Source: Thermococcus celer Vu 13 = JCM 8558
GTDB lineage: Archaea > Methanobacteriota_B > Thermococci > Thermococcales > Thermococcaceae
Reading direction: 5' to 3'
Assembly (NCBI RefSeq): GCF_002214365.1
Contig: NZ_CP014854.1
Coordinates: 620,001-684,000 of the forward strand
Length of the DNA stretch: 64,000 nucleotides
Positions 10,995 to 14,675 of this stretch are shown piece by piece. The first letter of the stretch is position 1. Every line of letters starts with the position of its first letter. The position numbers and the translations under genes were made by a program. Below the pieces are notes generated by a model. The model searched no databases and was not told the origin of the DNA. It worked only from the letters and a program-made list of their open reading frames with translations.

Positions 10995-11510
10995 TTATTT
11001 GAACTCCCTTCCCTCATCCTTTCCCTCCATCTTGATGACGTAGTCCGCCGCGTTCTGGAGGGCAACGGAGAAACCGGGCTCCACGCCTACGACTATCGTC
11101 TCCTTACCCCTGCGCTTGGCCTCGTTTATTATCGGGAGGAAGTCTGCATCCCTCGTTGCCAGGGCTATGACGTCAACATCGGAGTTGTAGATGAGCTCCA
11201 TGGCCTCGATGGCGATCCTCACGTCGGTATCTCCTGCCACGATTATCGGCTCCAGCCCCTGGTTGACGACGGCCTCTATGAGGCCCTGGGGTGCGTACTG
11301 GTTGAGAACCACCTTGGCAACGCGAAGCTTCCCTATCCTCCCGAGGGCCTCCACTATGTCCTCCAGCTTTATCCCGAACTCCTTTCGGAGGATGTTTGGA
11401 CCGTCTATTATGAGGCCGATGCTCCTCTTCTTCTGTGGCCTTTCGAGGGCACCGGCTTCCTTGACCTCCTTCTCCCCCCGCCCGATGATCCTGAAAAAGC
11501 GCTCTTTCAT
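10995..11510 (-). CDS. NYN/PIN-like ribonuclease domain protein (intact active site)
   Basis: A 171-residue protein of the archaeal NYN-domain (LabA/DUF88, TIGR00288-like) family, a PIN-type fold that in other members cuts RNA with acidic residues holding metal. Residues 32-160 form the domain: IIDGPNILR (Asp36), [14 protein letters not shown] (Asp94, Asp96) and [10 protein letters not shown] (Asp121, Asp123). All expected acids are present. The first 4 bases overlap the last 4 of the upstream paralogue, so the two genes are translationally coupled. The N-terminal 30 residues are basic and probably flexible. Activity and substrate are inferred from family only. Confidence 0.82.
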
Positions 11511-12016
11511 TCTCCCTCACCGCCCCCAAGGATTATGACGTAGTCGGCGGCGTGCTTTAACGCGGCTGAAAAGCCCGGTTCGATGCCGATAACCACCGTC
11601 TCCTTGCCGCGTTCCTTCGCCTTGAGGATGACCGGGAGGAACTCCGCGTTCCTCGTTGCGAGCGCTATCACGTCTATGTTGGGGTTGTAGATTTCCCTCA
11701 TCGCCTCGACGGCCAGCTTCACGCCCGTCTCCCCCGAGACGACGACGGCCTCAAAGCCCTGGTTGGACACCGCCTCTATGAGGCCCTGGGGAGCGTATTG
11801 ATTGAGGATCACCTTGGCAACGCGCAGGTCGCCCAGATCCTCGAGGGCCTCCACTATGTCCTCCAGCTTCACCCCGAACTCCTTCCTGAGGATGTTCGGA
11901 CCGTCGATGAGCAGTGCTATCTTCTTTCCCCTGCTTATCTTTCGCCTCATCGTTCCTATGATCCTCATCCCGTCCTTCGTCATCGAGATTATCCTTTCCC
12001 AGTTGCCGCCCGGCAT
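11507..12016 (-). CDS. NYN-domain paralogue with degenerate active site
   Basis: A 169-residue paralogue of the downstream gene; the two share long identical blocks ([28 protein letters not shown]). ATG 12016 is preferred because GGTGA sits about five bases upstream; a GTG at 12025 overlaps that site. Compared with the partner, Asp94/Asp96 become Glu96/Gly98 and the RDADF pair becomes RNAEF (Asn123, Glu125), while Asp38 of DGPN is kept. This pattern suggests loss of catalysis with the fold preserved, perhaps as the regulatory half of a heterodimer. A TATA box (CTTTTTATA on the minus strand, near 12075) serves the pair. Confidence 0.8.
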
Positions 12017-12089
12017 AGGAGTCACCGTTGAAATGGATACACCGGAGATACGCCTGAGGGAGTACGTACCAATCCTATAAAAAGTTAGT

Positions 12090-14531
12090 TCAGGGTTTGG
12101 AAATAATCCTCTTGTAATAGTACCAGAGTCCCCGGATGACGTCCCTGACCTCGATCATCGTGAAGGTCTCCGTCCTGTCTATCAACTCCGCCGCCTCCTT
12201 CCAGCTGTGGGCCTGCAGGACGCGGTAGATGAGCAGTTTTATCTGCCTCTCGTCGAGGTAGGGCTTCATCCAGCCGTCGAGGAAGTAGAGCTTGACGATG
12301 GGCTTGACCGCGTCAACGACCGTGTCGTAAGTCAGGACCTTTCCTGTGAAGGCGTCGAGGCGCTTCCTCTGGACGTCCGTCAGGTAAACAGGGTAATCAA
12401 CGGCCTCGCCGAAGGGCGTTTCGAAGAGCCAGCGCGCTATCTCCGGCTCGAGCTCACGGTGCGTATCACCCAGCCACTCCGTCAGCCTTACCCTGAACTC
12501 GTCGTTGGCCTTTTTTATGAGCTTCTCGGCCCTCTCGCTTATCGGCTTCAGGACTATGGCGGTGAACTCGCCGCTCACGGGGTTCCTCGCCGGGCTGAGG
12601 TGGACCACGGCGAAGCCGTTCCTGACCCAGAAGCGGACCAGTTCCTCGCTCGCCCCGAAGCCAGAGCCTATCCAGTCGAGGCCCCTCTCCTTGGCCTCCT
12701 TCTCGAGCAGTTCGAGGGCCCTGCTCCCGAGCCCCATGTCCATGGCATCGGGGTGTGTCGCTATCCTGACTATCCGGTAACCCCTCAGCCTCGCGAACTC
12801 CTTGGCCATGTGGTGCTTGACCATCATGTCGGGAATGATGTTGCCGCGCGGCTTGTAGCCCTTCACCATCTTCTCGATGACCTTCCTCGGGATGTTGCCC
12901 TCCTCCGCTATCTGCAGGGCCGTGACTATCTTTCCGTTCTTCAGGCGAAGGACCCTCGCCTTATGATGGGGAGCGTCGGCGAGGAGGGCAACGTCGCTCG
13001 GTCTGTTCCTGTAGTGGGCGAGGATGTATATCCCGACGAAGTTCCTGAGGTCCTCCCGGTCGTTCTCGAACCAGTCGTCCAGGTCGGGCTCCTCAAGGTA
13101 TACCTCCTTGTTCTCTATCAGCTTGTAATCCTCGTCCGTGAGCTCAACGGGTTCTGCATCCAGGAGGAGGACATCGAAGAGCCACCTCTCTATCGGGTCG
13201 CCCCCGGCGTAGCGGATCGGCTCGTCCATGTGGAGTTCCTTGAAATCCCTCTTCTCCCTGGCTTTCTTGAGGAACTTGACGGAGAAGCCCCTCCCGGCCC
13301 CCTCGTAGCCGTGAACGGTCGAGGAGTAAACGACCCTCCCCTTGTTGAGGTACCTGTGGAGTATAGGCACGTGGATTCCCGCGGCCTCGTCGAGGATGTA
13401 GAGGTCGGCGCTCTCCCTGTAACCCTCGACGGGGCGGTAATAGCGTAGCTCCACCCCTTCGGCTTGAACGCCCTTTATGATGCCCTTCTCCTCGACAACC
13501 CGCGGCTCGAAGCCGAGCCTTTCGAGGGCCTTCTCAGCGAAGCGGAACAGCGACTGAACGTTCTCCGGCTCGGGAGCGGTTACGACTATCCTCGTGTGCT
13601 TCTTGAGGGCCAGGGCGAGTCCAATCGCGGCTATCCCGACGGAGACGCTCTTTCCCCTCCCCCTATCGGCGGTGAGGACGAGCATGCCCTTGTTCCCGAC
13701 GAGTTCTTCAAATGCCCTAAAAACCTCAACCTGCCCCTCGGTGAGGGCCATCTCGTAGAGCTCGCGCGGGAAAACGGTCTCATCAGGGATGGGGACGTTT
13801 TTCCTGGCCCTGATACGGGCCTGGCTCTTCGAGCGCCTGGGTTTCTTTTTCGCCTTTCCGGCCTCGGTGATGATGTAGATGCCCTCGTGCTCCGTGAACT
13901 TCCTGATGAGGCGCCGGTTGAACCTCTTCTTGACGTCGTCGATGGTGTAAGGGGGTGTCACGAGGCTCTTGTGGAAGCCCGTCCACATATTCTTCCACTT
14001 CTCGAAGGGGTGGGCAAGGATGAATATCAGCCCGCCGCCCCTGACAGTCTCGATTATCCTGCCGAGGTCGTTCGGCGAGTAGTCGTAGCTCATGTCGAGG
14101 ACGAGGAGGTCGTAGGTTCTACCCAAGATATCGCGGGTGTGCTTGAAGGTAACCGCCTGAACCTCCACGTTGGAACCGGCCAGGACGTCGAAGTGCTTCC
14201 TGAAGGCCTCGTAGCGCTTCCGCCCGAAGGTCTCCTCCCCGAGGGCGTCCGTCGCGTAGAGAACCTCGATCCTGTCCTCGCCCTCGTCCCTCAGCCTCTT
14301 CCTCACGAGCTCGTCGATGATTCCGTTTAGGGTTCTGGCCGCGGCTCCTGCGAGGATCCCCGCCAGCTCGGCCTTCCTCGTCGTGTCTCCCTCTATCACT
14401 ATCATTCTTCTATGGAATCCCTCGAGTGCCTGGGCCAGAGCGGTCTCGGTGAGCTTTAAAATCGAGTCCTTAACCTTCTCGCCCTTCGCGTACTCTCTCA
14501 CTTCCCCATCAAAGCGAACCTTAACGGTCAT
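12090..14531 (-). CDS. tmcA: tRNA(Met)/RNA cytidine acetyltransferase
   Basis: Archaeal TmcA/NAT10/Kre33 enzyme, 813 residues, which makes N4-acetylcytidine in RNA using ATP and acetyl-CoA; in Thermococcus the homologue acetylates many RNAs. Order: N-terminal DUF1726-like domain (1-170), helicase module (about 270-440) with Walker A ADRGRGKS near 287 and Walker-B-like [13 protein letters not shown] acetyltransferase domain (about 450-640) with the acetyl-CoA loop [14 protein letters not shown] near 600, and a C-terminal RNA-binding part ([19 protein letters not shown]). ATG 14531 follows AGGGGGTC; the open frame extends 35 codons further upstream but that part is not protein-like. Full length and intact. 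Confidence 0.95.
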
Positions 14532-14675
14532 GGTGACCCCCTGATGAGAAGAGGAGGGGCGGCTTAAAAAGTTAGTTCCGCACTCTGTTGCGGCTCGCAG
14601 TTTACGGGATCGGCTTGATGATAAACTTTTAACCACTTCCAGCGATCAACCGTATCTATCAGGTCTCCCAGATGG

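Follow-up and report, generated by a model that had tools for sequence, protein, structure and literature searches.

A tandem pair of NYN-domain paralogues kept across the Thermococcales, one with an intact and one with a degenerate active site

The window analysed here is a stretch of 64,000 nucleotides of Thermococcus celer Vu 13 (NZ_CP014854.1, positions 620,001 to 684,000). It contains two adjoining genes for NYN-domain proteins, named here copy N (upstream) and copy C (downstream), whose coordinates and neighbouring features are given in Table 1. A sequence-only reading had described them as overlapping paralogues sharing four bases, and both open reading frames were recovered, with one ATGA common to the two. 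The frame of N is open from a GTG at 12025, but a GGTGA lies a few bases before the ATG at 12016, which is therefore the most probable start. Residue numbers for both proteins follow copy C.

Table 1. The NYN gene pair and associated features, in window positions
Feature	Position	Strand	Description
Copy N	11507..12016	minus	degenerate NYN protein, family TIGR00288; keeps D36/N39; E94, G96, N121, E123
Copy C	10995..11510	minus	NYN protein, family TIGR00288; five site acids D36, D94, D96, D121, D123
ATGA, 4-base overlap	11507..11510	minus	stop of N and start of C
TATA-box-like TTTTTATAGG	12071..12083	minus	about 60 bases upstream of the N start; putative, identified by eye
TmcA	12090..14636	minus	tRNA(Met) cytidine acetyltransferase; neighbouring gene, upstream of the pair

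Both proteins belong to the archaeal NYN family TIGR00288, scoring 215 and 208 bits with its profile (curated cut-off 178) and 89.6 and 79.8 bits with the Pfam NYN profile PF01936 (curated cut-off 24.2), and the genome has no further Pfam NYN match. They share the fold of the family and its core motif, DGPN. Other orders mostly have one TIGR00288 copy, with all acids present, and a fixed tandem of an active and a degenerate copy was seen in Thermococcales only. The AlphaFold2 model of copy C (pLDDT 85.8, pTM 0.81) has the Rossmann-like PIN/NYN fold, and its closest solved structures are VPA0982 (2qip) and the NYN domain of MARF1 (6fdl, 5yaa), with TM scores of 0.62-0.65 by query length. These two differ from the archaeal pair in being single domains with intact acids, at about 16-20% identity, and the MARF1 domain is a monomer in solution (PMC6294520). 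Regarding the sequence ahead of the domain, the N-termini of N orthologues share a conserved stretch, about M..WE.I...TK.G, and C orthologues begin about MK..LF.ILKR; both stretches are modelled at low confidence.

A search of 94 Thermococcales genomes with copy C as query gave matches in 89, all of which hold both genes in tandem with N first, so that the side-by-side co-occurrence proposed as a check in the sequence-only reading was found in 89 of 94. Each copy is represented by 73 different domain sequences among the 89 genomes, and genome counts are thus not fully independent. No match was obtained in five genomes, four of which have a completeness of 73-82%. In the fifth, G076 (96% complete), neither copy was found; a flanking marker gene is also missing or very divergent, which makes this genome uninformative on co-loss. 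The candidate argument that co-loss in G076 supports pairing was dropped for that reason, as the local context is unrecognisable. An ATGA or GTGA overlap of four bases is found in 55 of the 89 genomes, while the remaining tandem pairs mostly have a longer overlap of their reading frames and a few abut or lie a few bases apart. In one genome (G063, L155:5067-6158) N and C are in a single reading frame, with only TGA TAG and a few codons between them. In most genera the gene immediately upstream is tmcA; in genera g3 and g4 the pair stays together but is flanked by other genes. On this basis, the idea that tmcA and the pair function together as an operon was rejected, and the conserved unit is the N-C pair itself.

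The two copies differ sharply at the active site. Copy C has D36, D94, D96, D121 and D123 in 89 of 89 genomes, whereas copy N has E94, G96, N121 and E123, again in 89 of 89; D36 is kept by N in 88 of the 89 aligned rows, and the remaining row looks locally misaligned. The residues reported earlier for the T. celer pair were thus confirmed, and the substitutions in the first copy are fixed. The state of copy C is also that of its relatives. Among 50 single-copy relatives (Theionarchaea, Methanobacteria, Archaeoglobi and others), D94 and D96 are present in all 50 and D121 and D123 in 47, the three exceptions being what we take to be remote Hermodarchaea rows; a further 59 matches, which come mostly from Methanobacteriota and Halobacteriota, include 54 with the full acid set. 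At 48 positions that are at least 95% conserved in both C copies and single-copy outgroups, N keeps 41 residues and changes seven. Four of these seven are active-site acids (hypergeometric P = 8.5e-4), so the change of site acids in N is more than expected by chance.

Alignment with 2qip, in which a three-residue tag offset was deduced from the position of the first Asp, places D14, D92 and D115 of VPA0982 opposite D36, D96 and D121 of copy C. These three are given as conserved active residues (PMC11346440). Copy C therefore carries all three core catalytic aspartates in every genome with the pair, and copy N keeps the first but lacks the other two. Such aspartates matter in studied NYN enzymes: most or all activity was lost in MARF1 D426A/D427A (PMC6294520), in KHNYN D524A/D525A (PMC12709174) and in Bacteroides fragilis NYN D13A (PMC11346440). 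The earlier statement that the acids are lost from the upstream copy thus holds for D96 and D121, but D36, E94 and E123 remain. As D94E and D123E keep the charge, three acids are left at the site of N where C has five, and a weaker metal site could be rebuilt from E94 and E123.

In a maximum-likelihood tree, N copies form one clade and C copies another, and the two are joined against the single-copy relatives (SH-aLRT 100, 95 and, for the joint clade, 84). Since the N and C clades lie together, apart from the single-copy relatives, the duplication most likely occurred on the Thermococcales stem. The N copies have a median dN/dS of 0.039 and the C copies one of 0.033, and by this sequence measure purifying selection acts as strongly on N as on C. 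The N copies have a mean identity of 86% among themselves. Codons at the four substituted sites vary between genomes, with all four Gly codons present at site 96, and the residues stay constant. Simple decay of a redundant copy, which is how the loss of catalytic residues would look in one genome, is given almost no credence here: the sequence-only reading had expected it to leave randomly distributed substitutions or a single conserved copy, and neither pattern was found. Fixed substitutions and purifying selection throughout the order refute decay. The pairing of an active with a degenerate copy is real, ancient and maintained, and the identical change of the active site in all genomes indicates that the disabled copy is retained because it has a function of its own.

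A second NYN duplication was identified in 14 Methanobacteriaceae genomes, where the copies lie apart rather than adjacent. The first copy keeps all four aspartates at positions 94, 96, 121 and 123. Among the second copies (loci L216-L218, L248-L259 and L262), N121 is found in 13 of 14 and K130I in 14 of 14; E123 accompanies N121 in four, giving the motif TRNAEF as in the Thermococcales N copies. The exception is the second copy of G216, which instead has E94 and keeps D121. When the relevant columns were removed, the Methanobacteriaceae second copies grouped with their own first copies, away from Thermococcales N, and the loss of D121 is thus convergent. Because these copies are unlinked, any pairing in Methanobacteriaceae is not achieved via an operon. 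In a sample of 296 Halobacteriota genomes, no tandem NYN pair was present among the matches listed.

The sequence-only reading had proposed an active/inactive heterodimer, such as a nuclease with a built-in regulatory subunit. The first part of this proposal, a maintained pair of active and degenerate copies, is supported; binding between N and C we infer, and N may regulate C. The two paralogues co-occur constantly and are arranged for co-expression, as expected for an enzyme-pseudoenzyme heterodimer, and the gene overlap, the fixed order and a set of opposite charges suggest that N may bind C. The charges are fixed at position 105 (R/K in N, E in C) and position 130 (K in N, E in C) and near-fixed at position 133 (E in N, R in C), while the outgroup state is E105/K130/E133. 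In the predicted secondary structure of the C model, two neighbouring helices bear the catalytic acids in their first turns, and the charged positions would be at the opposite ends of these helices. A mixed ancestral patch would thus have become basic on N and acidic on C, and this combination of sequence and topology suggests that a heterodimer surface could have evolved from a homodimer surface. Two observations point the other way. The NYN domain of MARF1 is monomeric, and in the AlphaFold2 model of the natural tandem read-through of G063 (pTM 0.52) both domains fold, the N half also confidently, with no confident relative placement. The latter is a weak point against the heterodimer because the N half was modelled without aligned relatives.

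Overall, we lean, at a little better than even, towards the N-C pair as one functional unit in which a metal-dependent endoribonuclease, C, is accompanied by a catalytically impaired partner, N. By family precedent C would cut RNA with Mn2+ or Mg2+, as MARF1 (PMC6294520), KHNYN (PMC12709174) and the CRISPR-associated NYN protein of B. fragilis (PMC11346440) are metal-dependent endoribonucleases, and N, by the same precedent, would be without catalysis. Its probable role is that of a non-catalytic subunit that holds or selects RNA, or stabilises C. If the charge patch is the contact, N would be placed away from the active site of C and would serve not as a plug but as a scaffold or a subunit that holds RNA, since the opposite-charge positions are far from the helix starts bearing the catalytic acids. 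A broader proposal, which is possible but doubtful, is that TIGR00288 proteins were repeatedly (at least in Thermococcales and Methanobacteriaceae) made from homodimers into obligate enzyme-pseudoenzyme heterodimers through charge separation at a single patch of the surface, the result being an RNase of one active and one inactive subunit that serves core archaeal RNA metabolism.

Alternatively, N could be an independent RNA- or ligand-binding protein that gave up catalysis and is co-expressed with C without forming a stable complex, perhaps competing for the same RNAs or protecting them. We regard this as unlikely, though it deserves serious weight: N keeps most family-invariant positions (41 of the 48 above), MARF1 NYN is a monomer, the tandem model of G063 has no confident contact (its N half lacking alignment depth), and in Methanobacteriaceae the second copy is not linked to the first. 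Against it, gene order and tight spacing are kept in 89 of 89 genomes and the charges at 105 and 130 are fixed and opposite. That the pair is a type II toxin-antitoxin system or a defence module, in which N would be the antitoxin, is far less credible. The genes are a small overlapping pair, and the PIN-like fold is shared with VapC toxins. However, such modules have a patchy, mobile distribution and an unrelated antitoxin, whereas here the partners are paralogues, inheritance is vertical and near-universal across Thermococcales, and the neighbouring genes examined have no signs of mobility.

It is also quite improbable, but better founded than a toxin-antitoxin module, that N remains enzymatically active through a rebuilt site, in which E94 and E123 replace D96 and D121 and confer another metal preference, another substrate or a slower rate. 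D94E stands beside D96G and D123E beside D121N, so that the longer Glu appears exactly where the neighbouring Asp was lost, fixed in 89 of 89; D36 is kept, and N121 with E123 also arose in the four Methanobacteriaceae copies. Yet D96 and D121 are present in nearly all single-copy relatives, and NYN enzymes with single or double Asp mutations are dead or nearly so (PMC6294520, PMC11346440, PMC12709174).

The NYN fold, the TIGR00288 family and enzyme-pseudoenzyme pairs as an arrangement are already known. The B. fragilis ribonuclease resembles copy C as a prokaryotic, Mn2+-dependent NYN endoribonuclease with the same three aspartates, but it is located in a type III CRISPR locus, and the available part of its description has no mention of an inactive twin (PMC11346440). 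The PIN pair SMG6/SMG5 is similar in that the acid cluster is present in one partner and missing from the other, SMG5 (PMC6294520); it differs in being eukaryotic, of another PIN subfamily and encoded by non-overlapping genes. In the literature searched, mostly papers open without subscription, we found no description of the fixed TIGR00288 pair and its convergent Methanobacteriaceae counterpart and, searching by family name, neither a paper on TIGR00288 nor biochemical data on any of its proteins; a search under guessed Thermococcus kodakarensis locus tags for the pair likewise found nothing. Archaeal RNA decay and processing are only partly mapped, and TIGR00288 proteins are widespread among archaea. 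An order-wide disabled paralogue beside its active partner, with the same residue lost independently in another order, offers a specific example, easy to test, of an enzyme gaining a built-in non-catalytic partner. As T. kodakarensis is genetically tractable, both genes are directly testable.

Some further NYN genes were observed in Thermococcales assemblies. A contig binned as Thermococcus (L086, G091:C77) carries an Archaeoglobus-type NYN gene and is most likely contamination. Two genomes of genus g4 have extra, more divergent NYN paralogues (L264 and L265 in G077, L267 in G075) that are degenerate in another way, with D36N, D94R and D123H and with D96 and D121 kept. A broken copy of this third class, L266 (G077:C1:1911560-1911981), is split over two reading frames.
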